From the IMG/VR virus record IMGVR_UViG_3300005294_000078, positions 1 through 20,447 of that record: a DNA stretch of 20,447 nt; one strand, written 5' to 3'. This DNA is from a virus. The translations under genes and the position numbers were made by a program. Within the stretch, counting starts at the first letter, position 1; each line of letters starts with the position of its first letter. The notes under the pieces were generated by a model. The model had not been told where the DNA came from and made no database searches. It worked only from the letters and a program-made list of their open reading frames with translations. This document shows positions 3,248 through 19,233 of the stretch, piece by piece.

Positions 3248-3601
3248 TTACATTGACGACGAGCCGTTATCCAACTGATTGATAGCGGCCTCGGCGGCGG
3301 TCCAGAACGTGGTCCAATGACCGGCCAGGGTGTTCATCGCGAACTCGTAGTCGGTACCGTTTTTGCCCGGCGTGACGCCGTCGGGAACGATGCCGAAATT
3401 GTTCTGCACGAACATGTTACCCGGCGTCGTCATGTTACCCGCCTCGTACTGGGTGCCGGGAGTACCGACGTAACCAGCCGAAGCCGTGGCCAGGGCATCC
3501 TGCAGCCGCGCCATGGTGGTGTTCAGGCCGAGCAGCCTGCCCACGGTCTGGTTGGTCATGCTCCCGAAAGTCGTATTGGTCGGAATGATAAGAGCGGCCA
3601 T
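3248..3601 (-). CDS. Small phage protein following the giant fibre, 117 aa
   Basis: The start overlaps the stop of the giant fibre (TGATG), with GAGGA upstream inside the fibre's last codons, so translation is coupled. The N-terminal half is Thr/Asn-rich with a helical segment (RLQDALATASAGYVG). The middle is rich in Gly, Asn and Pro, and a Trp-containing helix (HWTTFWTAAEAAINQL) lies near the C-terminus. I recognise no family. Its position just after a fibre would suit a tip or assembly protein, but it does not resemble the known fibre-assembly families that I can recall. The product is probably cytoplasmic or virion-associated; no export signal is visible. Confidence 0.75.
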   Translation of the reverse strand: MAALIIPTNTTFGSMTNQTVGRLLGLNTTMARLQDALATASAGYVGTPGTQYEAGNMTTPGNMFVQNNFGIVPDGVTPGKNGTDYEFAMNTLAGHWTTFWTAAEAAINQLDNGSSSM

Positions 3602-6600
3602 CAGTGTATCCTCTGTTCAAGTGTTTCGAGACGCGCCGTCAGTTGTCGCACGGAACCGATCAGGGCCGCGATGAGCGCCTGATCGTTGAGTTGCCAGTAG
3701 CCCTCGCCTCGTGGGCCATTCAACCCGGGATACGCGCCGATGGAGAACGCCTCGCCCACTTCCTGGGCGATCAGCCCGACGGGGATGACGGCGTTCTCGT
3801 CCACCTGTCGCGTCCCGTCGGACGCGTCCCTGGGCTCCGGCTTCACGCGCAGGCGATACTGTTTCAGCGGTATCGCGTTGATCGCCGCCAGACAGTCGAA
3901 CGTCGAGGGGGCGATATCCTGTTTAAGCCGCCGGTCGCTCCAGGACCCCACCGCGTAGTCGGTCAGGTAGTTGCCATCGACCCAGCCGCGCACGGTGACG
4001 GCGCCGTCATGGTAAAACGAGAAGCAGTTCACCCCGCCCAGGTTCTTATAATATATGCCCCCCGTCGCGACGGACGCCGTTCCGGGTATGGACAATTGTC
4101 CGCCGGGGGTCAGCGTCAGGATGCCGACGGTGTTGTCGATGATCATCCAAACGCCGTCGGATGACTGACGGCCCATCCAGTAGTTGGGGTTGTTGGCGAC
4201 ATACACGCGACCGCTGATGGTCATGATATCGGCGCAGGTGAAGTAGCCGTTCACGGTAAGCGCGCCCGTGCAGGTATCCCCCGCTTTGTAAAGATAGCGC
4301 CCGTCAGCGGCGGGAGCGGTATAATAATTACCCTGGACCCAGGCCCGCGAGGCTATTGTTCCTTGGAACGAACTATCAATGAAGTAGTTCAGAGCCCCGT
4401 TCACTCCGTCCCAGCCAAAGCCGATGACGTTGGCGGACAGGCTACGGTAGATGATGCCGCTGGTAACGCTCGCGACACCACTCATGTAGACGGTCGGCGC
4501 GACCAGGGCCAGTTGAGTCATCCCCGCGTCGACCGCGAACTCCACGGTCGACGCGGTGGCGTTGCCGATATAGCCGTGTCGCGTACCGTCGGGCGTGTGA
4601 AACCCGAGGTGGCCGCTGTTGGTGGCGCTACCCAGGTCCAGCCTGGAATAACCCACGCCCGTCCCGACCTGGAGCGCGCCGGTCATGGTGTCGCCGGTCT
4701 TCTTGACGTAATCGCCACCGGTTATCGCGACGAACTTCGCGTCCACGTATTGCTTTGTCGTCGCTTCCATGGCGGCTGACGGATCGCGGCCCAGCACGGC
4801 GGTCTTGCCACCACCGAAGTTCAGACCGTTGTCGTTCATGCTGGCGACGAGGGTGCCATTTGGATAGAAGTTCGTTCCGCCGCCGCTGACGACGTTGAGC
4901 GTGCCCCCCGTGATACTGAACCCGTAGGAACCGCCATACATGTCGATGCCCTGCGACAGATCGGTCGCGGACGACTGCACGTGGTTGTTCATGTAGATAC
5001 CGTTGAACGTCGCTCTACCGCCATGCGTGGACGTGCCGAGGATCGTCGCGTTGCCGCCGCCATCAACCCCAAAGATTTGGGTATTGTTATCGACGAACCG
5101 CCAGACGCCGGTCGTGCCGTTGCGTTCGAAATAATAAGCCGGGTTGTGGGCGATGATTAACTGGCTGTCAGTGGACAATGACTGACCGCGCACCCGACCG
5201 GTAGACGTGACAGGCGTGTCGAACGTCGTCTGACCCAACTGGAAACGCACAGCGCGGGCCTGTCCGCTATCGAGGTTCGCATCGTTTCCGGTGTTGGTCA
5301 GCCAGATGTCAACGTGTTCGTATCCCCACGCGTTGGACGCGAACCCGGATCGGATCGAGGCCACGTAGCGCGGACCACCGTCGCCCACCGCCGCCGCGAA
5401 AGTTCCGTTGAACCGTATGATGCTCTTGACCAGATCGCCGCCACCAAGGGGACTAAGCCAAAGCTGCGCGCTCGTATCGGTTGGGTTATAGTTGATCTTT
5501 ACTGGGGTGCTGAACGAAGCCAGTGCCGCCGCCAGCCTTAGACGCTCGACCGGTGGCGTCGTGCTGTCGGTGAGCGCTGGCATCCCGTTGAACAGCAGCA
5601 CGCCACCGGAGTTGGTGATGGCGATGCCGTTGGTGTTTGAACTGTCAAAGATGCCGATGGAGTTGTTCTGGGGGCCAGTAACGACCAACTGCGCGCCATA
5701 GTTATGCGCCCCCCACGGATTGGTGTAGGCGTTGATCGTGAGCCGCCCGGTCATCGTGTCGCCGCCGACGTTTACCCACCGCGTGTCGCCCACCGTCGCC
5801 GTGACGAAGTTGCTGTTGACCCAGCGCGTATTCGCCACCGCGTCGTCGTTGCTGTCCGACGCCGCTGTCGGCGTCGTCACGTTCAGCGCGTAAACGCCGC
5901 CGCCATCGGTCCAGACCGCCTGATTACCATGCGCCTGGATGGTGATCGTGCCACCGCTCGCCCCCGCGAGGGTTATCGGCTGGTTGGTGATGTTCATCGC
6001 CGCCCATATCTTCGTGGGGACCGTGGCGACGGGCATGGTCAGGGTCACCGGACCAGTCGGTGAGCCATACATATACAACCCATGAGCGGTTATTTCGCCG
6101 ACGCCCACCGCGCGGCTGGTGTTGGCGTCCAAAAGAGCGGTCTGAAACTGGGTCGGATGGACGTGGTCGCCCTGGGCGTAATACCAAACGTTACTACCCG
6201 CGCTGCCCGCGCCGTCCATCGGCGGCGGGCTGGGGTAGACGACGGGGAGCGCGCTCGCCAGGGCCAGGGCGCCCTGGTCGCTACCATCCACGAACGCGTG
6301 GATCGTGTTACTGGCCCAGGAGAACCCTATCTTGCTTCCCCCGCCCGCCACGCCATAACCGATACCAACCCCGGCGATCCCCACGTCCCCCCAGGGAGCC
6401 ACATACAGGACCTGTTTCCAGGTCCCGGCCCCGGTCATTTGCAGCCACTGGAACCCACCATACCCGGAGTATCCGTTGATGAACGCGACCTCGCCCTGGC
6501 CCTGGTTCACGTTCCACGCGAGGTATCCGCCGCTGATCTGCGGCGGCACGGCGCTCAGGTTGTCATGGAAAGAGAAACGATTAACGGCGGTGGCCCCGTT

Positions 6601-9600
6601 GACGTTCAGTCGCGCGAAGAGGCTGACATCGTTACGAAAGTTGATGCCGTTCACGGCGTATGTCTCGACGGTGTGCGCCGCGCCGTCGATACGAATACCC
6701 AACGTGGAGTTGCTCCACGGCGCGAGGGTCAGAGCACCCGAGTCCGGCACTCCCTGGTAAGCCAGAAAATGCACGTCGCCCGTCTGAAGAAGACTGTTGT
6801 AGGCGCCCTGACCCTGGTTGGGGATGATCGCGAGCGACGTTGGCCCGGCGTTGACCCATATCATGGGCGTGAAGTAGGTCGTTCCGGTGACAGAACCGCC
6901 CGCCAACGGCAAATATGGCCCGCCCAGAGGCGCGCGGTTGTCCACATACTGCTTGGTGGCGGCTTCCATCGGCGCCCCGGGGTCCCGGCCAAGCGTGACG
7001 GACTGACTGTTCATGACCACGACCGGCGCGGTCAGCCCGATCTGCGAGCCACCCAACCAAAGCGGCTGGTAGCTTGTTACTCCGGTGTTATCGACCCCCT
7101 CGATCATGAAATAGTCAGGGCCGGAGTTCATCCGAACGCCTTTGGTGGAGCCCCGGAGCATCAACTGAGACACGCCGTCCGGCATCGAGATATTCAGCTG
7201 GCCGGTCATGTTGTCGCCAGTCACGTTGACCCAGCGCGTGTCACCTCCGCTGATGCTGATCGTGTTGTTATCGACGTATTGCTTCGTGGCGACCTCAAGC
7301 GCCACCTGAGGATCACGCGCCACCTGCATCGTTTCGCCCAGAGAAACGTGCCACGTATCCCGCGCGACCGTCAGCGCCGTTCCGCGAAACGAACCGTCAT
7401 TATTGTAGCTGTAGAGCGCGAGGCCGACGCCCCCCGCGTCCGTTCCGGCACCCGCCACCGGCCAGCCGTCCATGCCGAACAGCCAACGGTTCGTGCTGTT
7501 GGACAGGAAGCTTATCGCGCCACCTGCACCGGACAGGCCGTTTATGGTCAGATAGATGATGCTGCCGCCCGTTCCGACCGTGAGACCCTGGTTGACACCC
7601 AGCGAGCCAGTAATCGTGTCGCCAGTGATGTTCACCCAGCGAGCATCGCCCTGTGTGTTGGTTGAGTAGTTGTTATCGAGGTATTGCTTGTTGACCGCGT
7701 GCATCGGCTGCGATGGATCGCGCGCCAGGATGATATCCTTGCCGGTGCCCATGCTCAGTCCAGGCGGGCCAATCGATGCCGCGATGGCGGTCCCAACCAC
7801 GAACGCATGGTATGAATGCGTCGCCTCGGTCACGACGTAACTCAACAGCGCGTTGACGCCGTCGAACCACACGTTGAAGCCGAACGTGTTGTTCGCGCCC
7901 CCGTCATAGAGCGTCAGATGCCGCGTGGTGCTCAACGCCGATGGCGCGAGCGAGGCTCCAAGACCGAGACCTCCGGTCATGACATCGCCGGTCACGTTGA
8001 CCCAGCGTGCGTCGCCCTGCGCGTTGGTCGAGTAGTTGTTCGTCAGGTATTGTAACGGAACAGCCTGCAATCCGGTGGTCGGATCGCCCATCAGATACAA
8101 GGGCGTGTAAGTTTCGATGTTGCCCGTGCCGCGCCGGATCACGAACGGCGTCGGAGAAAGCCAGTTACCGTTATCGTCGAAACGGTTCATGATGTAATCG
8201 GTGCCGACGTTGCCGCCGGGCTCCCCACCGCCCGTGCCGAACTCAATCGCCCAGCGCGGCAGGCCGTATCGCTGGCTCTCGAAATAACCAGCGGCACTCG
8301 TCGCGGTGGTGGTATTCCACTTGACCGCTGGCCAATCACCACCTGTTCCTATGACCCTGATCGTCGCGTCGGTCGCGCTTGAAATGTAGAGGGCACCGGT
8401 CATCGTATCACCGGTTTTCTTTACCCACCGCGTGTCGCCTTGCGTGTTACTACTGTAATTATTTTGCAGGTATCGGAGCGGAACGGCATGGGCCCCGTTG
8501 GTCGGATCGCGGTCGAGCCAGAGGTCAACCCCCGTGCCCATCACCGCGCCGGTTCCATTGAACGACATGGTCTTCATGCCGCCAGAGACGAGGTTCAACC
8601 ATCCCGACGTGATGCTGAAACCACCCCATCCGTCAAAGAGAGAGAGGTGCCTCGTCAAATCGGTCGGGTTGTTTATTCCGGTATCGCCGTCAACCGTGCG
8701 CGACCCGAAGCTCAAGCCTCCCGTCATCTGGTCGCCAGCGGTGGCCACGCTGCGCTGCCACACGCCTGTTTGCAGCCGCCCGAACGTTCCGGCTCCGACT
8801 GGTTCGGCTATGAAACCATCAGTGCCGTCCTCGCCCGGCACGCCTTGTGGACCCTGTATGCCCTGCGGCCCCTGCGCGCCGGTCGCGCCGACAGGACCCT
8901 GCGCCCCCGTGGCCCCGGTTGGCCCCACGGGCCCCGGCACCGTGCTATCGGCACCCGTGGCGCCCGTCGCGCCTATCGGCCCCTGGACGCCCTGTGGACC
9001 CTGCGCGCCGGTCGCGCCGTCCACACCCGCCGGTCCGGTGGCACCCGTGGAACCCGTCGCGCCCACGGGTCCCTGAGTGCCCGTGTCGCCTTTGACGCCC
9101 TGCGGTCCGGTCGGGCCTGGGATACCTTGTTCACCCTGCGGCCCTTGTATGGGCCCGGCGTTTATCCAGACACCCGTCTCGGTGTCCCAGATCCACATAT
9201 CGCCGGTATCCTGGACGATATACGCGTCGCCGTCCGAATTGCCCGTGGGCGGAAGCGAGCCGACATCGGGCACCTGGCCCTTGACGTTGATGCCCGTACC
9301 GGCGGCGCCGGTCTCGCCCTGAATACCTTGTGGTCCCTGCGGCCCAACGGGACCCTCCGCGCCGGGCGTGCCTGGCACGCCCTGAGGCCCGGTCGCGCCG
9401 TCCACACCAGCCGTGCCGGGAACGCCCTGGATACCCTGGGGGCCGGTGGCGCCCGTGTTGCCCGTGTCGCCCTTGGCGCCCGCCGGACCGGCCGGACCTT
9501 GAACACCCTGCGAACCCGTGGCGCCATCCGCGCCATCGTCACCCGGAACACCTTGCGGCCCTTGCGGCCCGGCGGGGCCGGGAACTGTACTGGCGGGCCC

Positions 9601-9873
9601 CTGAGGCCCCGTCGGACCGGTAGGACCCACCGGCCCCTGAGGCCCCGTACCGCCCGACGGTCCCATGTCGCCCGTGCTGACGTCGATCTGGACCGGTTCG
9701 GGAGTGAAAATGTCGATATCCACCGACCAGACCGGCGGCGTCATGACAACGTCCACCAGGATCGGATCGGCGTCATCGGTCTGGATATCCACCGACATAT
9801 TCACAATCGGATAGACGTCCACCTGGGTGGGCGTCGGCTCCGTGGATACGTCGATGGACACGATGTCGTTCAC
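3601..9873 (-). CDS. Giant collagen-like tail fibre with S74 chaperone, 2090 aa
   Basis: The fibre likely binds the host surface as a trimer. Residues 1-70 form a beta-type N-terminal region with repeated V-D-I-x-V motifs. Residues 71-193 and 241-353 are two collagen-like G-x-y blocks, separated by a 47-residue module ([20 protein letters not shown]). From about 370 onward come nine GDTMTG-type modules, several preceded by DP...AxxKQYVDNNY and GDxRWV, plus a GDHVHPT motif near residue 1236. The last 112 residues are an intramolecular chaperone of the endosialidase type (peptidase S74): SDRRLKQDI supplies Ser1979 and Lys1984, the self-cleavage dyad, and a short helix ends the protein. I chose GTG at 9873 because it forms a GTGA overlap with the preceding gene. 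The longer frame upstream reads as Arg-rich antisense-like sequence inside that gene. Fibre function is firm; the ligand is unknown. Confidence 0.92.
3604..3939 (-). other. S74 intramolecular chaperone domain of the giant fibre
   Basis: This segment encodes the 112 C-terminal residues starting at the predicted self-cleavage serine. SDRRLKQDI carries the Ser and the Lys five residues later, as in phage endosialidase C-terminal chaperones. Downstream [15 protein letters not shown] and [21 protein letters not shown] match the usual core and terminal helix. It is known for the family that the domain guides trimer folding and is then released by cleavage before the serine. Confidence 0.85.
8815..9153 (-). 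repeat. Second collagen-like G-x-y block (residues 241-353)
   Basis: The coded sequence is a nearly unbroken run of Gly-x-y triplets with many GPQG, GATG and GPTG units. Pro is common in the second position, and Gln, Thr and Ala in the third. Such runs form triple helices in phage fibres. The DNA is consequently a degenerate 9-bp-periodic, very GC-rich repeat and gives long spurious open frames on the other strand. Confidence 0.9.
9295..9663 (-). repeat. First collagen-like G-x-y block (residues 71-193)
   Basis: This is a Gly-x-y block beginning [16 protein letters not shown] and ending [10 protein letters not shown] short break (ASTV) lies near residue 95; the equivalent DSTV break recurs in the second block near 310, so the two blocks probably share an ancestor. 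Confidence 0.9.
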
Positions 9874-10211
9874 GTTAATACCGTAGTGACGTCGGAGGTC
9901 GTGTTCACCTGTCCGGCGAGCACCGTGGCGACGTCGCCCCAGGCGTACGTCACCTGCAAATCCCACACCGACGAACTGGGCAGTTTCGCCGAGTCGTGCG
10001 CCGCCAGCACCATCACCACGGTGTTGGGCACGTTGATCGTGCAGGCCATGCCCGCGATGAACGATCCACCACCCCTGTCACGTATTTGCGCCACCACTTT
10101 CGCGCCGTTCAGGTCGGCGGGCACGGTACGCTCCGTGTCCAGCCACAGCTTGAACCGCCAGCGATACGTGTCGCCGCGATAGATCAGCAGGGGCATCTTC
10201 CCCGGTGTCAT
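9870..10211 (-). CDS. Small beta-rich fibre-associated protein, 113 aa (BppU N-terminal-like)
   Basis: The protein has the pattern [15 protein letters not shown], then [15 protein letters not shown], then [21 protein letters not shown], and ends SDVTTVLT. This order (GDT at the start, DLxG...QIR, WDLQ, and a V...GxVxxxxDVT end) is typical of small immunoglobulin-like modules found alone or at the N-terminus of baseplate and fibre proteins such as BppU. I infer a connector or fibre-anchoring role. The start overlaps the stop of the 438-aa fibre (ATGA) and its own stop overlaps the GTG of the giant fibre (GTGA). It is thus made in step with both fibres, which suits a docking protein. No signal peptide is visible. 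Confidence 0.8.
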
Positions 10212-11524
10212 TTCCCCGCCTTCAGCGCGGCGACTTCCGCCGCCAGTTCCTTCATCCCGTTCACCAGGGCGACGATGATCGGCGTCATCGTGATGCCCAA
10301 TATCGGATCGTCGGTGTCCAGTTTGTCGAAAGGACGCACCGCCAGCGGAATGACCTCGCGCAGGGCCTGCGCGGCGAAACCGATCTCGCGCGACCCGTCA
10401 TGGTCGATACGGGTGAATTCGATGGGTTCCAGTTTCAGTATGTCCGCCAGACCGCAGGACGCCGGAACCATGTCGGTTTTAAGCCGTGTGTCGGAACCGA
10501 CGAAGTAATCGACGATCCCGCCAAACCCGCCAATCAAATTGATGCAGTTCTTATCCGACGTGCGCATCTGGAAAAACGTGGTGAACGGCGCGGGCAACGG
10601 ACCGATCCACGTCATGTCCCCGGTGGTGGTCGACCAGTGCCAGGCCCAGCTCGGGTCCATCTGCAGAACACGCCCGCTCACGTTCGCCGCCAGCGCCATG
10701 CTGCCGCCAGCGGCGGTCACCGCCTCGCCAGCGATCACGTTGTGGGAGGTGGCCAGCTGCCCGCAATTGATCCCAGCCGTGACGTTGAGGACACCGCCTC
10801 CGGTCAGGGACATGGTGGGAACGCCGCCATTGACCCATGTCCGTTCCCCGCTCGAAATCGCCCATTTGTTGGACCAGCCCGGCGTGAACTCCTGAACGAA
10901 ACTCACGCCGTCGTTGTAAAATACCCACCCATTCAGGCCCAACGCCTTGCCGAAAACGCCGTTGGCGGAAACGAGTTGACCGTTGGCGAATATGTTACCG
11001 GCGCTGGAGACGGTGCCCGCGTACAACGTGCCCGTGACGCTAAGATTGCCGCCGCCGTCCAAAGTCATCAGGTCGACATTGTTGCCGATCCAGTGCCGCT
11101 GGCCGCCCGCGCTCGCCCACACGTCGGCCCAACCCGCGCGATAAGTCTGGAAATGGTCGCCATTGGCCGCGACCGTCATATACCACTCGTACTCATTAAA
11201 TTTGTTGATGAGCAGAAAATTCTCGGCGTACAGATTCTTCGCGGTCAGCGACCCGTCGATGCCCATGTCGCCGCTGATATTTCCGCCGGTCCCGCTCATC
11301 TTGGTGTCGGCGTAAGCTTTGTTGACGGCCTGGGACGGCGTGGTGGGATTGTCCACCAGATGCAACGGTCCGGTCATGAAACCGCCGGACAGGGACAGGA
11401 ACGGCGCGCCCGTGAACAGCACGTTGCTCATGTCCACCTTGCGGCCCCACCACGAATTCCACTCGTTCGCCGAGGGTACGTACCCCGCCGTCCAGTTCGG
11501 TGTTTCCCCCGTGCTGCCGCTCAT
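10208..11524 (-). CDS. Tail fibre protein with S74 chaperone, 438 aa
   Basis: Residues 8-31 (TPNWTAGYVPSANEWNSWWG, then RKVD) match the common phage-fibre start with vPsaxEWN and K-x-D. A GGFMTGPLHL module and a DNPTTPSQAVNKAYADTK module follow at 47-75, the same kind as in the two larger fibres. The middle (about 100-330) contains beta-rich repeats with NEYEWYM, a W...W...G motif and GGGNLSVTG-like endings. The C-terminal 95 residues form an S74-type chaperone: SDTRLKTDM gives Ser344 and Lys349, followed by EIGFAAQALREVIP and a final amphipathic helix. An AGGGA ribosome site precedes the ATG. It is presumably a trimeric short fibre; the receptor is unknown. Confidence 0.88.
   Translation of the reverse strand: MSGSTGETPNWTAGYVPSANEWNSWWGRKVDMSNVLFTGAPFLSLSGGFMTGPLHLVDNPTTPSQAVNKAYADTKMSGTGGNISGDMGIDGSLTAKNLYAENFLLINKFNEYEWYMTVAANGDHFQTYRAGWADVWASAGGQRHWIGNNVDLMTLDGGGNLSVTGTLYAGTVSSAGNIFANGQLVSANGVFGKALGLNGWVFYNDGVSFVQEFTPGWSNKWAISSGERTWVNGGVPTMSLTGGGVLNVTAGINCGQLATSHNVIAGEAVTAAGGSMALAANVSGRVLQMDPSWAWHWSTTTGDMTWIGPLPAPFTTFFQMRTSDKNCINLIGGFGGIVDYFVGSDTRLKTDMVPASCGLADILKLEPIEFTRIDHDGSREIGFAAQALREVIPLAVRPFDKLDTDDPILGITMTPIIVALVNGMKELAAEVAALKAGK
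10211..10495 (-). other. S74 intramolecular chaperone domain of the 438-aa fibre
   Basis: The last 95 residues begin at Ser344 of SDTRLK, with Lys349 completing the expected Ser-Lys dyad. The domain is shorter than that of the giant fibre, but its core (EIGFAAQALREV) and terminal helix ([14 protein letters not shown]) are present. It should cleave itself before Ser344 after the fibre has trimerised, as known for the family. Confidence 0.8.
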
Positions 11525-11533
11525 GGTCTGTCC

Positions 11534-11902
11534 CTAGCTCTGGATGGAGAGAAGTTGGCTGACCGCCTTGTTCATCATGCTGACGGCGCGCGAATCCTCA
11601 CTGAACGTATCCTCGCGCAGTTCCGCCCGCCCAACGAGATAATACACGAACGCGGAATAACAGCTGGTATCCAACGGAAACGAAGTGCTCATGTCGGTGG
11701 CGGCGGTATAGAACGCCAACGGTTTGCGCAGCCCCAGGGGCAGGAACAAATCAGGACGCTTGGTGCGCACCTCGGCCAACATGGAGTTGATCGCCTCGAA
11801 CATCTCGTCGTCGGTGTATCTCAGCGCGCCGCCGGACGTGCCGATCTTGTCCTGCAACATCGTGCGGGCCTCACCGATGAGCGTGCCGAACGTCCGAGCC
11901 AT
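11534..11902 (-). CDS. Phage adaptor / head-tail connector-like protein (DUF6682-like), 122 aa
   Basis: The protein starts MARTFGTLIGEARTMLQDK, continues with RYTDDEMFEAINSMLAEVRTKRPDLFL, and has a hydrophobic helix (CYSAFVYYLVGRAELR) before a C-terminal SRAVSMMNKAVSQLL helix. This order, with an N-terminal helix ending in L-x-D, a YTDxExxxxIN helix, an RPDLF turn and later helices, is typical of short phage adaptor proteins, including those named DUF6682, that sit under the portal. The assignment is from memory of the family pattern. The length of about 120 residues agrees. A GAGGA ribosome site lies about 11 bases before the ATG. It is placed between the Lys-rich block and the fibres, as a neck protein often is. 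Confidence 0.72.
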   Translation of the reverse strand: MARTFGTLIGEARTMLQDKIGTSGGALRYTDDEMFEAINSMLAEVRTKRPDLFLPLGLRKPLAFYTAATDMSTSFPLDTSCYSAFVYYLVGRAELREDTFSEDSRAVSMMNKAVSQLLSIQS

Positions 11903-11905
11903 GGA

Positions 11906-12295
11906 TCAGCGTTTCCTCTTGATGGGCATGGTTTTCTTCACCTTGCCGCCGCGCGCCAGACTAATTTTGTAAGGGTCTGGTATATGGTCGATCTCGCCTC
12001 TGTCTCTTAGGAACGGCCTCGGCACGTTCACCCCTCTGTTCATGTCACGGTCCACGGTCTCGTCAGCTTGTGGGATACGCTCCAACAGAGTTTTCTTCGC
12101 CGGGGGCTCGTGCTGGACCCAGAATTTCTGCCCTTGCCGGTACGCGTCCGCCTTCTGATCCACGTCGGTGCCCAACTGGCGGCGCGACGACAGTGTCTGG
12201 CCGTAGGCTCGCAACGCCTTGTCGCGAGCCGCCTCGGTCTGGCCAACCCGGCCACCCTCGGCGAAACCCTTGCGTTTGCGAACCGGCTTTTTCAC
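11906..12295 (-). CDS. Lys-rich GGxV-motif protein, 129 aa
   Basis: This is a strongly basic protein of unknown function. It begins VKKPVRKRKGFAEGGRVG, has a helical middle (AARDKALRAYGQTLSSRR) and ends LARGGKVKKTMPIKRKR, so the GGxV motif appears at both ends. I chose GTG at 12295 because it forms a GTGA overlap with the preceding gene and has AGGAAG five bases upstream at 12301-12306. A longer frame would extend into the body of that gene. It is the last of five adjacent proteins with the same motif between the capsid and adaptor genes. A DNA-contacting internal or capsid-associated role is possible because of the charge, but this is inference only. Confidence 0.75.
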   Translation of the reverse strand: MKKPVRKRKGFAEGGRVGQTEAARDKALRAYGQTLSSRRQLGTDVDQKADAYRQGQKFWVQHEPPAKKTLLERIPQADETVDRDMNRGVNVPRPFLRDRGEIDHIPDPYKISLARGGKVKKTMPIKRKR

Positions 12296-12561
12296 CGGCC
12301 CTTCCTCTTGGCTTTGAGAACCTTCTTGACGGGAACAACCTTTTTCACCTTGCCACCCTTGGCCATCTCCTTGCCGTCGACGAGATCGCTCATCGACCAT
12401 GAGTATCCGTCTCTGTTGTCCAGGTCTCGGAGAGGTTTGCCGGTGTACTGAGCGGTATCGCGCGTCAAAGCGGATGGATCTCTCACCATCTTGTCGTCAC
12501 CACTAAGCCGCATCCTCGGAGGAGGCGGACCTCGTGAACTGATTATACCTCTCGGTGCCAT
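12292..12561 (-). CDS. Lys-rich GGKVKK protein, 89 aa
   Basis: The N-terminal half is Arg/Pro-rich (SSRGPPPPRMRLSG). The middle is polar, with DRDxSA/DNRDGYSW-like turns. The end is EMAKGGKVKK followed by a lysine-rich tail (VVPVKKVLKAKRKGR). The ATG at 12561 overlaps the preceding stop (TGATG), and an AGAGGGGG ribosome site lies just upstream; a TTG three bases earlier is possible but less likely. I recognise no family. The GGKVKK-plus-basic-tail layout is the same as in the 86- and 129-aa neighbours, pointing to a related or co-functioning set. The charge suggests nucleic-acid or capsid-surface contact, without proof. Confidence 0.75.
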   Translation of the reverse strand: MAPRGIISSRGPPPPRMRLSGDDKMVRDPSALTRDTAQYTGKPLRDLDNRDGYSWSMSDLVDGKEMAKGGKVKKVVPVKKVLKAKRKGR

Positions 12562-13019
12562 CAACGCCCCCTCTTCTGAGGTAGCTTGCCCTTGTTGATC
12601 TGGTTCAGCGCCGCCGTGCCGAGCTTCTTCACCGCCGATTTACGCACCACGTACTCGCCCTTTTGCGCGGGTATCAGCCCGTCGTCCTTGCCGATGGGTT
12701 TGCCCGCCACGCGTTTGATCTTGCCGCCGCGCGCGTTGCCGCCCGCCAGATCGCCCGGCACGCCGGGCAGACCGCCCGGCACCCCACGCACGTAATCGTT
12801 GCTGGCCGAGGGCAATTTCGGACTGGACGTGTTCTGCGCTTTGTCGCCCGGCTTATCTTCCGGCTTTTTCTCCGGTTTGCTCGCGTCTTTGTAAGCCGTG
12901 GCGAGGTCCATGCCGGTTTTGAAACCACCGGAGATGCTACGCCCCAGGCTGTCCGTGCTCAGCACCTGCCCGCCGTAATCATACCCGCGCACGCGCTTGA
13001 GGATCGGTTTCCTGGGCAT
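12561..13019 (-). CDS. Basic phage protein with GEYVVRKSAV motif, 152 aa
   Basis: Residues 1-45 contain RGYDYGGQVLS and a small hydrophobic stretch. Residues about 48-75 are a Lys/Pro/Asp-rich linker (KPEKKPEDKPGDK). A Gly-rich part follows (VPGGLPGVPGDLAGG), then ARGGKIKR. The C-terminal 40 residues are KDDGLIPAQKGEYVVRKSAV plus a KLGTAALNQINKG tail. The motif (D)G.IPA..xGEYVVRxxAVxxxG...L..IN is a recurring module in phage proteins, often at the ends of tape-measure and other virion proteins; its function is unknown to me. The start overlaps the preceding stop (TGATG). It is a virion or assembly protein by context. Confidence 0.78.
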   Translation of the reverse strand: MPRKPILKRVRGYDYGGQVLSTDSLGRSISGGFKTGMDLATAYKDASKPEKKPEDKPGDKAQNTSSPKLPSASNDYVRGVPGGLPGVPGDLAGGNARGGKIKRVAGKPIGKDDGLIPAQKGEYVVRKSAVKKLGTAALNQINKGKLPQKRGR

Positions 13020-13279
13020 CAGCGTTTCTTCTGAAACGGAAACGGTTTCTTGACTTTACCCCCCTTCTTAAACCCCATGGGCGGCACGGGACCGCCTGGG
13101 TTGGTCGAGGCGCTGGGCGCGCCGGGACCGCCCGAGGCCAGGGTGGGAGGCCCAGCGGCGGCGGCTGGTGGCGGCGCCGGGGTCACGTTGGTGGGGAGCT
13201 TGGCGGCTTTCTTGCTACCCAGCCCGAGCGAGGGCGGCACGGACTTGCCCTTGGCTTTACCGATGGATGGAGGTCTCAT
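13019..13279 (-). CDS. Pro/Ala/Gly-rich GGKVKK protein, 86 aa
   Basis: This is a low-complexity, probably unfolded protein. Its basic start (RPPSIGKAKGK) leads to a Pro/Ala/Gly-rich middle (TPAPPPAAAAGPP) and the end is GFKKGGKVKKPFPFQKKR. It carries the same GGKVKK-plus-basic-tail as the 89- and 129-aa proteins. The ATG overlaps the stop of the 180-aa gene (ATGA), and its own stop overlaps the next ATG (TGATG), so translation is coupled on both sides. I do not recognise a family. The lack of hydrophobic core residues suggests a flexible peptide that binds a partner through its C-terminus. Confidence 0.72.
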   Translation of the reverse strand: MRPPSIGKAKGKSVPPSLGLGSKKAAKLPTNVTPAPPPAAAAGPPTLASGGPGAPSASTNPGGPVPPMGFKKGGKVKKPFPFQKKR

Positions 13280-13818
13280 TTGCGTTTCCCAAACATCTGA
13301 CGTTGACCCGCTTTGTCCTGGGCTTTGTCCTTGGGCGTGCGCTCGTACGCCTTCATGGAGACGCCCATCTTTTTCGCGCCCGCCTTGTCCTGCGCGATAT
13401 CCTTCCTGGTGCCTTCGAAAACCTTCTTCACGGCGCCGCCCTTGGCGAAACCATGATACCGGGCGGCATCGTCGGGGTGCGAAAACCGCTTTTGCTTGTA
13501 AGGATCTTCGCCCGTCATTTCCGACAGTTCGTTTTCAGCCCGACTTTGTACGGCGGACAAAGACTCCATCTTCCTCAAATGCCGCTCTTTATCAGGGTCG
13601 GTCGATGTCTTATTGAAGCGCTCGTCCGGGGTCCCCCCAACACGCATCCGAGCCTCGAACGTGTCTCCTCGGTCCAGAAAATCGTTCGACATTCGGTCCG
13701 ATTCGACGTTCGATATAGTCTTCCCACCCGGATCGACCGGCCCGCCGCTGGCATAACCCTTGGGTTTGACCTTCGGTCTGGCCCTGGGGACGTGGGACCC
13801 CCATTGTTGTGTCGCCAT
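13276..13818 (-). CDS. Basic GGxV protein with internal DKAG repeat, 180 aa
   Basis: This polar, charged protein is of unknown function. It has GYASGGPVDPGG near residue 25 and a highly charged helical middle (DPDKERHLRKMESLSAVQ). GFAKGGAVKKVFEGT follows, and the C-terminus holds two imperfect copies of (R/P)KDxAQDKAG (TRKDIAQDKAGAKKM and TPKDKAQDKAGQRQM) with an YERT spacer. Two adjacent ATG codons are present. I chose 13818 because GGAGGT at 13823-13828 then has a normal spacing; the ATG at 13821 is too close. This is the first gene after the UUCG hairpin behind the capsid gene. Similar KD..DK.gakK.G repeats occur in other phage proteins from memory, with no known role. Confidence 0.78.
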   Translation of the reverse strand: MATQQWGSHVPRARPKVKPKGYASGGPVDPGGKTISNVESDRMSNDFLDRGDTFEARMRVGGTPDERFNKTSTDPDKERHLRKMESLSAVQSRAENELSEMTGEDPYKQKRFSHPDDAARYHGFAKGGAVKKVFEGTRKDIAQDKAGAKKMGVSMKAYERTPKDKAQDKAGQRQMFGKRK

Positions 13819-13822
13819 CATG

Positions 13823-13867: not shown

Positions 13868-14809
13868 CTAACCCCGAACGGCGTAGAGTTCGGTGATGGC
13901 GATACCGTCCAGGACCTTGGACGAGTACACCTGCAGACCCCGCAAGAGCGTGCTGAACGACCGCTCGGAGCGCATCTGCTCCAGCTTGGTGATCTGGCTC
14001 GCGAAGGTGAGCCCGTGCGGGTGACCGGCGAAGATGCGGAACGCGGTGGCCGCGCCCTCGGCGGCGGTCGGCAGCAGGTTGGAAGAATACAACGTGAACC
14101 GGTCGATCATGCCCAGGCGACCGTTCCTGGTCATGGACACCCCATCGCCCGAGATCGACGCGTTGCGCAGGTCCGACTTCTTGATCAGCGCCGCGATCCA
14201 GGGCGGGATGACCAGCCAACGTCCCGTTTCCGGGATGTTCTGCTCGTCCAGCACGGTGCCCAGGTCGACGATGCTGTCGATGATGTTCAGCGGCGTGACC
14301 GCGATGGGCGCGCCCGTCGTGCCCAGGTTGATGTTCAGCGAGATGCGTCCCGCCGTGGCGCCCTTGTTCGCCGCGACGATACCGGCGTCGATGGTGGTGA
14401 GCACGTCGGTGTCGATGACGATCTTCATCTGTTCGGCGGCGTCGTCCGACCACAGGGAGAGCAGGTTGATGTCGGACTGCACCTCCATGATGTCGTCCAG
14501 GGCTTCGTTGAAGTACTTCGCCTTGTCGATGGTGAAGTCCACGATGTTGGACGACGGACGATCAATGAGCAGGTCCTGGTTGACCTGATAGTCCCTGATC
14601 GTGATGGTCGGTTTGGTGCGGATGTGAACCACGTCGCCCTGGTTCTTGATCTCGCCCTCGTAGTCCGTGTTGGCGATGGCGCTCAGCACGGTGGCCGAGT
14701 AGAACTTCTCGATCAGTTTACCCGACCAGATCTCCGGAATGAACGTGCCGTGGTACGCGGGGGTCTGATTTGATCCGGCCCATGGGGTGGCCGCGATTGT
14801 GATGGCCAT
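13868..14809 (-). CDS. Major capsid protein (HK97-fold-like), 313 aa
   Basis: This is the shell subunit. The N-terminus has FIPEIWSGKLIEKFYSATVL and then IANTDYEGEIKNQGDVVHI, the usual N-arm and E-loop pattern of phage coat proteins with GDVV/I. A helical spine follows (YFNEALDDIMEVQSDINLL), then a DxxxEQMKIVIDTDVL helix, an IPETGRWLVIPPWI central domain strand and a C-terminal domain ending in MRSERSFSTLLRGLQVYSSK. The length of about 310 residues fits small coat proteins. The family call rests on this order and on the gene lying directly after the scaffold. AAAGGAG precedes the ATG by nine bases. The strong hairpin behind the gene fits high expression. Confidence 0.92.
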   Translation of the reverse strand: MAITIAATPWAGSNQTPAYHGTFIPEIWSGKLIEKFYSATVLSAIANTDYEGEIKNQGDVVHIRTKPTITIRDYQVNQDLLIDRPSSNIVDFTIDKAKYFNEALDDIMEVQSDINLLSLWSDDAAEQMKIVIDTDVLTTIDAGIVAANKGATAGRISLNINLGTTGAPIAVTPLNIIDSIVDLGTVLDEQNIPETGRWLVIPPWIAALIKKSDLRNASISGDGVSMTRNGRLGMIDRFTLYSSNLLPTAAEGAATAFRIFAGHPHGLTFASQITKLEQMRSERSFSTLLRGLQVYSSKVLDGIAITELYAVRG

Positions 14810-14834: not shown

Positions 14835-15851
14835 TCATGACTGACGGAAGCGCCCTTCGAGCGGAGCCAGGATGATATCGCGCTCCAGACGTTCAGCTTC
14901 CGCTTCACGTCCGGCCCAATACCCACGCTGCTTTTGTCGATAGAACGCGTTGACGTCCGCCGTCGTCCAAATGCGTGCCTCGGGAGCGCCGGGCGCCGGG
15001 GATGAGACACTGCGGCCTCGTCCAGGCACCGCCAGATCGGCGAGGGGTAGCCGTTCCGCCGAATCGGTCTGGAACGTCTGTGTCCCTGGCTGCTGGCCAA
15101 CCACGGTCTGCTCGTTCTTGTACGCACGGAAGAACGCGATGGTCCGCGCGGCATCGCCCGAATTGTAAGCGTTGTCAATAAGAGTTTTACGCGTTTGGCC
15201 GCTGAACATGTCCGGCTGGTTCAGCCACGCGATGAAATTCGGGTCCACGTTGATCTGTTCCCAGTCCGGCACGGCCTGGGTCAGGGCGCCGTCCACGCCG
15301 CGCTGGGTCGTATATGTCGCCAGTTGCTGATTACCCGACTCGACCGCCAACAGGCGTCGTTCGTAGTCCTGTAAAATGGGTGCGTAACGCGCGTCGGCCC
15401 ATCGCTGCGACGCCTCGATCAGGTCCTGGCCATAGGCTTCGACGTCTTCCGGGGGCACCTCCCGCGTGGGCGGCGGCATGGGACGTACACGGGGCACGTT
15501 CTCGAACGTCTCCTCCGCGCGCCGGGGCTGGTTCATTTGCGCCACCATGTTCCTCAGGGAGTTCAACTCCCCGCGTAGCTCGGGGACCTCGGTGTTATAT
15601 TTGCCCTGCAGCGTGTTGTACCGTTGCTCCCAGTCGTTGACGGGTTGTTGCGGAGTCGGTTGCTGGGGCCGGTCACCCAGGTCCAGCTGTTGCTGGACCG
15701 GTTCCTGGTCGCCTTCGCCGTTCGCCACGGGCGTGTCACCCTCGGGCGCGTCGGGAACATTGGCCACGCCCGCCTCGCGCGCCAGTTCATCGGCGCGCGC
15801 CGACGCGCGGCGAACGGCTTCGGGCAGGTATGGTTGATGCGTGTCAGACAT
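14835..15851 (-). CDS. Head scaffolding protein, 338 aa
   Basis: This is a very acidic and Gln/Pro-rich protein with a helical, coiled-coil-like stretch near residues 73-106 (DWEQRYNTLQGKYNTEVPEL and following heptads). Before it lies an unfolded Gln/Pro linker (residues 50-71). The C-terminus has TTADVNAFYRQKQRGYWAGR, then EAEAERLERDIILAPLEGR. The combination of a disordered acidic N-terminus, a coiled coil and a small C-terminal helical module is typical of scaffolds, which assemble the procapsid through their C-termini and leave afterwards. The gene stands just before the major capsid gene, as in P22-type head clusters, and its start overlaps the previous gene by eight bases. No protease domain is present. 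Confidence 0.85.
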   Translation of the reverse strand: MSDTHQPYLPEAVRRASARADELAREAGVANVPDAPEGDTPVANGEGDQEPVQQQLDLGDRPQQPTPQQPVNDWEQRYNTLQGKYNTEVPELRGELNSLRNMVAQMNQPRRAEETFENVPRVRPMPPPTREVPPEDVEAYGQDLIEASQRWADARYAPILQDYERRLLAVESGNQQLATYTTQRGVDGALTQAVPDWEQINVDPNFIAWLNQPDMFSGQTRKTLIDNAYNSGDAARTIAFFRAYKNEQTVVGQQPGTQTFQTDSAERLPLADLAVPGRGRSVSSPAPGAPEARIWTTADVNAFYRQKQRGYWAGREAEAERLERDIILAPLEGRFRQS

Positions 15852-16116: not shown

Positions 16117-16274
16117 GTTTCACTCCATTTCCTCAATGCGTCCGCGATCAGGTCACGCTCTTCCACGGTGAGCCAGTGCCATGGTGTCACGATGCGGTCG
16201 ATACCCTGCTCCCACACGCGCGCGTAAAGCAGGTCCTTGATCAGCTTGTCCCGCAGCGCGTCTTTAGAACTCAT
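16113..16274 (-). CDS. Very small phage protein, 53 aa
   Basis: This short frame begins ATG at 16274, inside the last codons of the Gly-rich gene, and ends TGA at 16113-16115, overlapping the GTG of the 90-aa gene. The product reads MSSKDALRDKLIKDLLYARV and continues with WEQGID and a WHWLTVEERDLIADALRKW segment, so it is helical with three Trp. The double overlap and sensible amphipathic composition make it a likely real gene; the ribosome site is weak. No named family is recognised. A pattern of a helix, a short loop with W..L, and a final R..LI..A helix is common among small phage proteins of unknown role. Confidence 0.75.
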   Translation of the reverse strand: MSSKDALRDKLIKDLLYARVWEQGIDRIVTPWHWLTVEERDLIADALRKWSET

Positions 16275-16599
16275 TTTTCATACTGTAATCGCCGCTCGGA
16301 CCAGCCACGCCCTTCTTGCCCGGCCCAAGCCCGCCACGCGCGCGCCTGATCCCGCCGCCACCGCCACGGATCTGCGACAGCGGGTTGCCGGGGCCACGCT
16401 TGCCGTAATGGCCCATCGCGCGGTGCAACGGGTCACCCGGCGTCATGGTGTTCTTCAGCCCCGTGTGCGGCGTGCTCAGCTGCTGGTGTTTGGCGTTTTT
16501 ACCGCCACCGACATACGTGGTTTCGGCGCCGCCGCCTCCACCGCCACCCATGCCGAACAACATGCCGCCCACGCCAGAGCCAAATGACGGGAGTGCCAT
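16264..16599 (-). CDS. Gly-rich small protein, 111 aa
   Basis: This low-complexity protein contains three Gly runs (GMGGGGGGGAETTYVGGG, and later QIRGGGGGIRRARGG) with a more ordered middle (TPHTGLKNTMTPGDPLHRAM). It is basic in the second half. A strong GGAGGG site stands five bases before the ATG. The gene starts one base after the previous stop (TGATATG). It overlaps the 53-aa gene by eleven bases at its 3' end. I recognise no family. The early SGVGGMLFGMGGG stretch could insert in or line a membrane only if it were longer and more hydrophobic, so I do not claim this. It may be a minor virion or assembly protein. Confidence 0.72.
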   Translation of the reverse strand: MALPSFGSGVGGMLFGMGGGGGGGAETTYVGGGKNAKHQQLSTPHTGLKNTMTPGDPLHRAMGHYGKRGPGNPLSQIRGGGGGIRRARGGLGPGKKGVAGPSGDYSMKNEF

Positions 16600-16811: not shown

Positions 16812-17006
16812 TCAGGTCCCGCAGATGCCGTAGGTGCTGGCTGGCTTCTTCTCCGGGTTCCAGTCCGTGCGGCGGATCGACTTACCCTTGGGGTAGTGGC
16901 GTGACGATCCGGTGGGGCCCGAGTTCTCGCCACCCGACCCGCCGCCGGATGCTTTCATGCTGGTACCGGAGCCCGACGACTCCGTCTTATCGCCTGAATT
17001 AACCAT
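16812..17006 (-). CDS. Ser/Gly-rich small protein after the portal, 64 aa
   Basis: The ATG at 17006 lies eight bases inside the end of the portal gene and is served by a clear AGGAG at 17013-17017 with six bases of spacing. This is why I prefer it over a longer frame within the portal gene. Residues 1-36 are Ser/Gly-rich (SGSGTSMKASGGGSGG) and probably unfolded. The basic end (HYPKGKSIRRTDWNPEKKP) finishes in YGICGT. No family is recognised. A flexible linker plus a short basic anchor would suit a small head or portal-associated protein, but this is a guess from composition and position. Confidence 0.72.
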   Translation of the reverse strand: MVNSGDKTESSGSGTSMKASGGGSGGENSGPTGSSRHYPKGKSIRRTDWNPEKKPASTYGICGT

Positions 17007-19233
17007 GTGGTGCTCCTGATCCTTGTGAGAACGCGTTGAACGACGGTGGCCGGGCGGGTCCCGGCTGGCGTGACTGGCCTCCCTGGGCCTGGCTCCCGGT
17101 TGACGGTCTCGCTGGCCCTTGCGGCCCAGGTGGGCCTTGTGGCGCCTTCTCCTCGCCGGGTTTTTGAGCTTGTTCCTGCCCCGGCGGACCCGGTGCCGGG
17201 GCGCCGACGGACTGGGCATGCGCCTGAACGGCCATTCCCGCCGCCTGGAGGCGCTTCTGGGCGTCCATCTGGGCTTGCAGGGTCTGGTCGTCGGGTACGA
17301 TGTCGTCGGGCAGCCCCATGCCCTCGGAGATGGCGCGCAGCAGGCGCGCCCTGCCGATCTCGCCGATGATGGGACCGTCGATGGGGTTGGCGGTGATCTG
17401 CAGGAACTGTAGCTGACGCTGGCGCTCGGTTTCTTTTTGAGCGGAAACCTTACTCCCCAGGACCTGGACCTGCTCCTGACCCGTCAACAGGTCCGAGGTG
17501 TCGGTCAGCATGATCATCTCATGCAGCGCCTCGATCAGCGGCTCCAGGACGTTGGTGTCCACGTTCGCCGCGACGGTCTGCAACACCTTCGCCGCGTTGT
17601 TCATGAGCATGGACAGGCCCGAGGCTGTTCGTCCCGCGCCGCCCGACAGGCTTTCGCCCGTCAGATACCTGGGAATGGCCGATTGTTCGTCGGCCATCAC
17701 GTTCATCGCGTTGATGACACCCAGTAACTCCTGGGTGTTCGACGTGGGTTGGAAGAACGTGACGGGTTCACGTTGATTACCCAGCGGATCGCCCTGCACG
17801 TGCCATCGTTTCCAGGGATACAACTCGTCGCCGTTCTCGGTGGGCGAGACCATCTCGTCGTTGACGATGACCTGGGGTCCCGAACTTATCGAGAGGTTGT
17901 TCACCAGCGCCCGGTAAGCCGCGTTGGCGACCTCCTGGATATCCTCCAGGATATCCGGCAGGGCGTGCCCGGCGATGGTGCCGGGGACTTTCTCGAAACT
18001 GGTGAGATAAAACGGATGGCGTTGTCTTGGAGACGGGTTGATCTGCGTCTTGATGGTCCACCGGCCCACCACCCAACTCTGGATCATGTATTCACGGTCC
18101 GAATCGGGGATGAGTTTGGGACTCACGCCCTCGTCGAGCAGGGTCTGACCCTGCACGTTGCCGTGGAACTCGATGCCCTCGATGTACTGGGACCGGTTCA
18201 AACTTGGGTCCTCACGACCTTCGTTGATGGCCTGCTCCGGGTCCGGCGCGTCCAACCACTCGCGTAACCCATGGGCGTAATCGGTCAGCGCGTTGCGCAC
18301 CGCCGTCTCGTCATAGCCCGGCACGCCCAGCACATCGTTCAGATCGGCGCGCGTGTATCTCACACGCTGGATGATGGCCGCGTCGGACAGCGCCGAGGCG
18401 CCGGGGGACCAGTAAATATCGAACGGATTGACCCGTTCCCAGAACATCACCGGCTTGTTCTGCAGGCTGGGCCGTCTGTCCAGCCAGGTCAGCCGGGGCA
18501 CCATGCGCACCACGGGACCTTTCATCACCGCGTAGGGGAACAAAGGCAGATCTTGCAGGAATTCCCCCATGGCCTCGTAAAAACCGCCCGCCTGGAGGAT
18601 ATCGTCCATCTTGTCGGTCGCCGCCTGGGCCTGGGTCATGGCGTTGCGGCGCGATGCCTGTTGCGCGGCGTGCAACAGGTTCACGTAGCGCATGTGAACC
18701 TGGTTCTCCTCGACCGGCTGGCCCGACATCTGGAGCGTCTGGACCTCGGTGGATATCAACTGGAGTATGCTGGTGCGTATCTCAGGCGGGATCGGCGGGT
18801 CGGCGATGGCCCTGAGTTGCCAGGGGCGCTCGGTGCCCAGGTAGACGTCCCTGAGCAAGGCGGTGGCGCCGCGACATTTATTCGCTACCTGCCTGGAATA
18901 GACCTCCGAGCCACCAAAAGCCTGGATCTGGGACAGTTTCTCGGCGTCGTACTTGCCCTCGAACATGCGTTGGGCGCGCAGGAGCCGCTGATTGAGCGGA
19001 TTATTACCCTGATTGCGATGGTTTCTGAATATGAACCATTGCTGGCGTATCCAGGACCCCAGATCGGGCGTCTCCAGGCGTTTGGAGCCGCTTATTCTTC
19101 GAGTATTCGCCTCCTGGTCGCGCCGGTCCAGTTGCGAGGGGGAGATGACACGCAGAAAGCCGCCGTTGTCGCCCGCCGAGCGCGCCTGGGCGGGGTAAGA
19201 CGACGACGACAAACCTGCTTGGGCCAATGGCAA
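16999..19233 (-). CDS. Portal protein, 744 aa
   Basis: This is the dodecameric DNA gate of the head. Residues about 50-100 read LGSWIRQQWFIFRNHRNQGN and RLLRAQRMFEGKYD, with SEVYSRQVANKCRGATALLR next, as in large podovirus portals. The middle carries RVNPFDIYWSPGA and the long wing region. Residues about 470-600 show the conserved IPRYLTGESL..GAGRTASG, then SMLMNNAAKVLQTVAANVD and a PLIEALHEMIM helix. A helical barrel-like part and a Gly/Pro/Gln-rich tail with collagen-like triplets (GPPGPQGPARP) finish it. The length matches P22 and N4 portals (over 700). The start is TTG at 19233 with GAGGGGG at 19242-19248; no in-frame ATG upstream is available. It is the first gene of the late operon. Confidence 0.9.
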   Translation of the reverse strand: MPLAQAGLSSSSYPAQARSAGDNGGFLRVISPSQLDRRDQEANTRRISGSKRLETPDLGSWIRQQWFIFRNHRNQGNNPLNQRLLRAQRMFEGKYDAEKLSQIQAFGGSEVYSRQVANKCRGATALLRDVYLGTERPWQLRAIADPPIPPEIRTSILQLISTEVQTLQMSGQPVEENQVHMRYVNLLHAAQQASRRNAMTQAQAATDKMDDILQAGGFYEAMGEFLQDLPLFPYAVMKGPVVRMVPRLTWLDRRPSLQNKPVMFWERVNPFDIYWSPGASALSDAAIIQRVRYTRADLNDVLGVPGYDETAVRNALTDYAHGLREWLDAPDPEQAINEGREDPSLNRSQYIEGIEFHGNVQGQTLLDEGVSPKLIPDSDREYMIQSWVVGRWTIKTQINPSPRQRHPFYLTSFEKVPGTIAGHALPDILEDIQEVANAAYRALVNNLSISSGPQVIVNDEMVSPTENGDELYPWKRWHVQGDPLGNQREPVTFFQPTSNTQELLGVINAMNVMADEQSAIPRYLTGESLSGGAGRTASGLSMLMNNAAKVLQTVAANVDTNVLEPLIEALHEMIMLTDTSDLLTGQEQVQVLGSKVSAQKETERQRQLQFLQITANPIDGPIIGEIGRARLLRAISEGMGLPDDIVPDDQTLQAQMDAQKRLQAAGMAVQAHAQSVGAPAPGPPGQEQAQKPGEEKAPQGPPGPQGPARPSTGSQAQGGQSRQPGPARPPSFNAFSQGSGAPHG

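Follow-up and report, generated by a model that had tools for sequence, protein, structure and literature searches.

Genes of the capsid-adaptor interval

The window, by which we mean the whole stretch of 20,447 nucleotides that was analysed, corresponds to a 20.4 kb virus fragment in IMG/VR, from a soil phage. Genes for a portal, an acidic scaffold-like protein, the capsid, a block of small proteins, an adaptor and tail fibres follow one another in this order, all on the minus strand. The portal gene lies at 16999-19233 and the scaffold gene at 14835-15851. A preliminary description of this DNA had proposed five consecutive small basic ORFs between the capsid and adaptor genes, and these were recovered at 11906-13821 on the minus strand. 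They share the strand of both flanking genes and adjoin one another with overlaps of a few bases; D is better read from an ATG at 12561 and E from a GTG at 12295. Every motif quoted in that description was located in the ORF to which it had been assigned, and the three proteins ending in GGKVKK plus a basic tail are B, D and E. The features are as follows.

13868-14809, minus strand: major capsid protein (phrog_267, major head protein, E 1.7e-61)
13276-13821, minus strand: ORF A, 181 aa; N-module, variable body, GFAKGGAVKK, then the 'FEGSxKD' domain
13735-13758 and 13423-13452, minus strand: motifs of ORF A, GYASGGPV and GFAKGGAVKK, respectively
13279-13422, minus strand: 'FEGSxKD..DKxGAKKxGV' domain, C-terminal part of ORF A (alignment A3)
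13019-13279, minus strand: ORF B, 86 aa; Pro/Gly/Ala-rich and basic, ending in GFKKGGKVKK (13046-13075) plus PFPFQKKR
12561-13019, minus strand: ORF C, 152 aa; N-terminal GYDYGGQV (12963-12986), helix-forming middle, C-terminal tape-measure-type module
12570-12737, minus strand: tape-measure-type module of ORF C, ARGGKIKR...GKDDGLIPAQKGEYVVRKSAVKKLG..LNQINKGKLP
12292-12561, minus strand: ORF D, 89 aa; ends in MAKGGKVKK (12340-12366) plus a basic tail
11906-12295, minus strand: ORF E, 129 aa, GTG start; GFAEGGRV (12245-12268), variable body, LARGGKVKK (11933-11959) plus TMPIKRKR
11534-11902, minus strand: head-tail adaptor-like protein (phrog_23601, function unknown, E 1.2e-14; phrog_399, structural protein, E 7e-4; weak SU10_adaptor match)

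The block proteins carry net charges of +12 to +18 and contain 13.0% Lys, as against 2.2% in the other proteins of the window. The same bias was found in two relatives of 64-67 kb, where all ORFs of at least 300 aa have 6.3% Lys or less and the block proteins 12-15%. Searches of Pfam, PHROGs, NCBIfam and PADLOC returned no family naming A, B, D or E, and among known structural families only C was matched. A PADLOC match of ORF E to an anti-phage defence protein (E 0.04) was taken as chance. The plasmids searched gave no match, and the bacterial genome contigs searched gave no relative of C. In the literature searched, the string GGKVKK occurred in no paper and related strings led to no phage paper about the motif; neither a family of the libraries nor a paper among those searched describes the block.

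Elsewhere in the window, a tail-fibre-like gene of about 2090 aa (3601-9873, minus strand) combines repeated fibre units with an extended collagen-like G-x-x region; this gene and 10208-11524 both terminate in intramolecular chaperone/fibre-end-like regions. Upstream of the scaffold gene, 16264-16599 (minus strand) encodes a small, basic, G-rich protein that contains GG-rich stretches and matched no family. Long open frames at 10205-12010 and 8440-10182 (both plus strand), and similar ones, run antisense to real genes and were rejected as an effect of high GC content.

Frequency and placement of the motif

Each of the five ORFs contains one or two hydrophobic-xx-GG-x-V/I motifs. The pattern GG.[V/I] occurs 9 times over all five proteins, whereas 0.75 occurrences are expected from residue-shuffled copies, and none of 20,000 residue shuffles gave 9; for the longer G[YF]..GG.[V/I] the counts are 5 observed and 0.003 expected. 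In the comparison with composition-matched sequences that the preliminary description had suggested, the motif therefore lies far above chance, and the shuffles rule out chance or low complexity as its origin.

The motif was followed through 21 non-redundant blocks, the window included, with 76 called genes. The C gene is found, and is motif-bearing, in 21 of 21 blocks. Among the other basic block genes the motif is present in 35 of 48, the remaining 13 all being a stand-alone 50-aa 'FEGSxKD' protein. The motif is placed near the start of the basic proteins, near their end, or at both positions. The N-terminal version reads [KR]xx G[YF]xxGGx[VI] and mostly falls within the first 25 residues; the C-terminal version reads [FLMK]x[KR]GGKV[KRG][KR], mostly 6-17 residues from the end, and is followed by the basic tail. 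The 31 copies of GGKV in the non-redundant blocks use 16 different DNA encodings; selection on the motif thus acts on the protein, and conservation of DNA or RNA or recent duplication alone was rejected as the main cause. In addition, the shared ends may guide recombination.

A tape-measure-type module in ORF C

The C-terminal end of ORF C matches the tape-measure family phrog_3547 (E 3.3e-7) and, used as a profile, PDB entry 8zdo, the Douge gp16 tape measure protein (E 6.7e-9). It also matches the tape-measure proteins of Mycobacterium phage Cosmo and Stenotrophomonas phage DLP5, and the Cosmo segment in turn matches 8rk3 of JBD30. C holds the whole C-terminal GGx(I/V/L)...GTSDS...GEF(I/V)VRK..V.KYG..L..IN.G module of these proteins. 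In the tape-measure proteins a GG-x-I/V/L sequence (GYATGGLI, KDGGSI, GYANGGFL, GFASGGHI) directly precedes the module. GG and GE are separated by 23 residues in C, and 26 of the 27 motif-bearing module sequences counted have this value; in Cosmo it is 21, i.e. nearly equal. The spacing of the motif from the GE[FY]V stretch is thus fixed, as for a structural element. Because the GG motif sits directly before the module at a near-constant distance, the motif of the block is probably, on sequence grounds, the same element as that of the tape-measure proteins, used both with and without the module.

There are also clear differences. Tape-measure proteins are long and mostly helical, and their length sets the length of the tail, whereas C has 152 aa and lacks a long coiled coil, and the genome carrying it is short-tailed-phage-like; the other block proteins have the motif only, without the module. 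Two AlphaFold runs on C gave pLDDT values of 52 and 57 and one short N-terminal helix, and owing to this low confidence no fold supports a binding role for C. Tape-measure proteins fill the tail channel and leave it at infection (Douge and JBD30 papers); for Douge and JBD30 the residues reported as resolved are confined to the last 33-42, and the module lies outside these. In contractile injection systems, tape-measure-related proteins occur as ejected cargo (PMC13277306).

The composition of the block raises the alternative that its proteins aid DNA condensation or packaging, with Lys-rich disordered chains neutralising the DNA in the head and GG-x-V-K-K forming part of a DNA-binding chain that has no protein partner. 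The high net charge, the Lys excess over the phage's other proteins and the low predicted order are all consistent with such a role. However, a fixed aromatic/hydrophobic-xx-GG-x-V/I sequence at set places exceeds what charge would require, several bodies between motifs are non-basic (e.g. in L232 and L212), and the motif also opens the tape-measure module, where in Cosmo the surroundings of the motif are not Lys-rich. We consider this explanation unlikely.

Replacement of bodies between conserved ends

The bodies of the two-motif proteins (n = 21) form at least 10 clusters, between which similarity is undetectable. The exchange is most directly seen in a comparison of the window with a close relative (L203), in which identity is 96.8% over the end of the capsid gene and 94.7% over a stretch that runs from the last part of A through the whole of B, C and D into the first part of E. 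A and E nevertheless have unrelated bodies, which have been replaced between conserved ends. Similarity resumes at +410 and +1893, that is 6 and 16 bases before the GFAKGG and LARGGKV codons, and the breakpoints of similarity thus fall within a few codons of the motifs.

Modules are likewise found in new positions. The start of E in the window matches the start of A in L203, over 27 aa the N-module of ORF A shares 74% identity with the last gene of the L008 block, and in L186 the N-modules of A and C duplicate one another (70% identity over 47 aa). Orthologues of B in relatives have swapped tails. In L163, whose sequence from the capsid gene through C is about 97% identical to that of the window, D is cleanly absent. 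The FEGSxKD domain is a separate, motif-less gene in L005, L007, L008 and others, and is fused behind a motif cassette in ORF A of the window and in L006 and L015; it is homologous to a domain in a motif-bearing protein of the phage L131 (hhalign probability 96%, E 4e-9). This domain also gave a weak glycosyl hydrolase 108 match (E 7e-4, below the curated cut-off), possibly chance and possibly a remnant.

Judged from their sequences, the block proteins are chimeras with shared ends and unrelated middles, in agreement with the earlier view that they are not five unrelated hypotheticals. With such ends and middles, 'tagged proteins' is a fair description, and this part of the preliminary account stands; the motif may in turn bind one shared partner, for which that account suggested the capsid or the DNA as examples. 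The tape-measure module in C, the composition of A as a cassette plus a 50-aa domain, and the swapping of bodies between genes and between phages go beyond that account.

The position of the motifs at module junctions, e.g. between cassette and FEGSxKD domain in A and in L006, would also fit a processing site, where cleavage at GG by a protease of phage or host would free bodies and tails. Adenovirus-type proteases cut at GG sites. However, the Pfam matches of the 40 ORFs of the 67 kb relative (G001) include neither a prohead protease nor a GG-type protease, the sole metallopeptidase match there being DUF2201_N, and the fixed spacing between the motif and GE[FY]V in the tape-measure module is that of a structural element. 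A processing site is accordingly very improbable.

Distribution of the block among relatives

Among IMG/VR capsid relatives, the block is present wherever capsid identity is at least about 86% and the interval is covered. In the next closest relatives (L016-L021, 73-76% capsid identity) the capsid gene leads directly to the adaptor gene without a block, and nothing comparable to the block of basic motif proteins is found in Rhizobium phage RHph_TM3_14A, which among cultured records has the closest capsid (64%). The capsid-adaptor position is fixed in 21 blocks; the genes are thus kept together across relatives, and the unlinked arrangement weighed in the preliminary description was not what the comparison returned. 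In two longer relatives (G001, 67 kb, and G002, 64 kb), this interval is the only place that encodes small, basic proteins with the motif, the few remaining regular-expression matches being large non-basic ORFs or ORFs unlike genes. One contig (L022) carries this type of cassette gene at 14.9-16.8 kb (= L225/L227), away from its capsid gene by about 7 kb in the downstream direction, and the block can therefore move.

This distribution bears on a role in head or neck assembly or decoration (cement proteins, portal-adaptor fillers), in which the motif would bind capsid or portal and no ejection would take place. In the Kuravirus SU10, which has a similar head-gene order, the same interval holds gp10, an Ig-like predicted minor capsid protein (PMC9509320). 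The likeness is one of position, as gp10 is a single folded protein and the block a set of basic motif proteins. Furthermore, the block is missing from relatives at 73-76% capsid identity, and bodies are swapped and genes gained or lost beside capsid genes that are 97% identical, whereas cement proteins are normally folded and conserved. Such a role is distinctly improbable.

The rapid turnover of bodies and the presence or absence of genes between near-identical phages would suit late proteins that have no place in the virion and act in the infected cell, where they would serve host take-over or counter-defence and the motif would bind a factor of host or phage. That only C matches a known structural family agrees with this. 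Against it stand the fixed capsid-adaptor position in the 21 blocks and the tape-measure module in C; PADLOC gave no convincing match for the block proteins, albeit its scope is defence systems and it hardly tests counter-defence. We regard a purely intracellular role as quite unlikely.

Proposed role as particle-loaded cargo

The closest functional parallel is with the internal proteins of T4. IPI, IPII, IPIII and Alt are small and basic, their bodies diverge strongly while a capsid-targeting sequence is common to them, they provide a route for loading varied proteins into the head and injecting them, and their Lys residues contact the packaged DNA (PMC3012670, PMC9026906). The block proteins are likewise small, basic and Lys-rich, with diverse bodies and a short common sequence. 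The differences are that the T4 tag is an N-terminal propeptide removed by the gp21 protease, whereas the block motif lies near either end and is often C-terminal, with no prohead protease among the Pfam matches of G001 (see above), and that the T4 proteins are known from the mature head, whereas the block is known from sequence and its location in the virion is something that we infer. No sequence homology of the block proteins to the T4 internal proteins was found, and we favour, by analogy, a block that would work like them without being homologous to them.

In the reading that we tentatively put first, and which we hold to be possible but somewhat short of probable, the block would provide a changeable set of small, Lys-rich and mostly disordered late proteins; via the shared GG-x-V/I motif these would be loaded into the particle (head or tail channel), to be ejected with the DNA at infection. 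The idea of loading into the lumen comes from the tape-measure proteins with the same motif and module, which are themselves loaded in the lumen and ejected. Because bodies are exchanged among phages while the ends stay fixed, the bodies may be accessory cargo, serving in host take-over, counter-defence or DNA condensation.

Several observations speak against this reading. Relatives in the clade have large candidate ejection genes of their own elsewhere (2505-2578 and 1127-1152 aa), and motif carriers in other contigs are not all beside head genes. No family match to known podophage ejection proteins (T7 gp14-16, SU10 gp20-24 type) was obtained in Pfam, PHROGs or NCBIfam. In cultured SU10 the ejection proteins gp20-24 are encoded elsewhere than in the capsid-adaptor interval (PMC9509320), and the parts of its genome that were compared hold no basic motif protein.

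Motif carriers in other phages

At least 120 IMG/VR stretches contain the string G[FY/LI]xKGGKVKK. Those carriers that were sampled are small basic proteins whose bodies vary and which have other recurrent tails; they matched no family model except for single PHROGs (unknown function or 'virion structural protein') in the case of two that were tested. The carriers in L085-L162, from other environmental phages, have the same G[YF]xKGGKVKK string as the block but differ from it in bodies, in phage type and in tails such as SSASKRADGCAxRGKTKGR. The FEGSxKD domain recurs alongside the string in L116, L131 and L289. Neighbouring genes belong to virion structural, tail, baseplate and head families; since metabolic and chaperone genes are found among them too, the context is only loosely structural.

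It is conceivable, if doubtful, that the motif is a general tape-measure-derived tag for exchangeable cargo in many environmental tailed phages, the block beside the capsid gene being a hypervariable instance. Were the motif a loading tag, it would offer a simple sequence test for injected accessory proteins, possibly including counter-defence proteins, in uncultured phages, explain an unnamed motif of at least 120 viral contig stretches, and assign a role to the GG module that recurs in tape-measure proteins. Even as a DNA-condensing or assembly motif only, it would mark a large undescribed class of phage proteins.

Two further sequences were seen among the carriers. The tail SSASKRADGCAxRGKTKGRxV recurs on several adjacent motif proteins (L138, L116, L152, L104 and others) and is a candidate second shared tag. 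In addition, a small 'GLYDNIxARK' protein (phrog_25774) of the marine phages MZ892988 (CRP-212), KC465901 (HTVC019P) and AF338467 (P60) has the same GGKVKK end in the uncultured relatives L096, L099 and L144.
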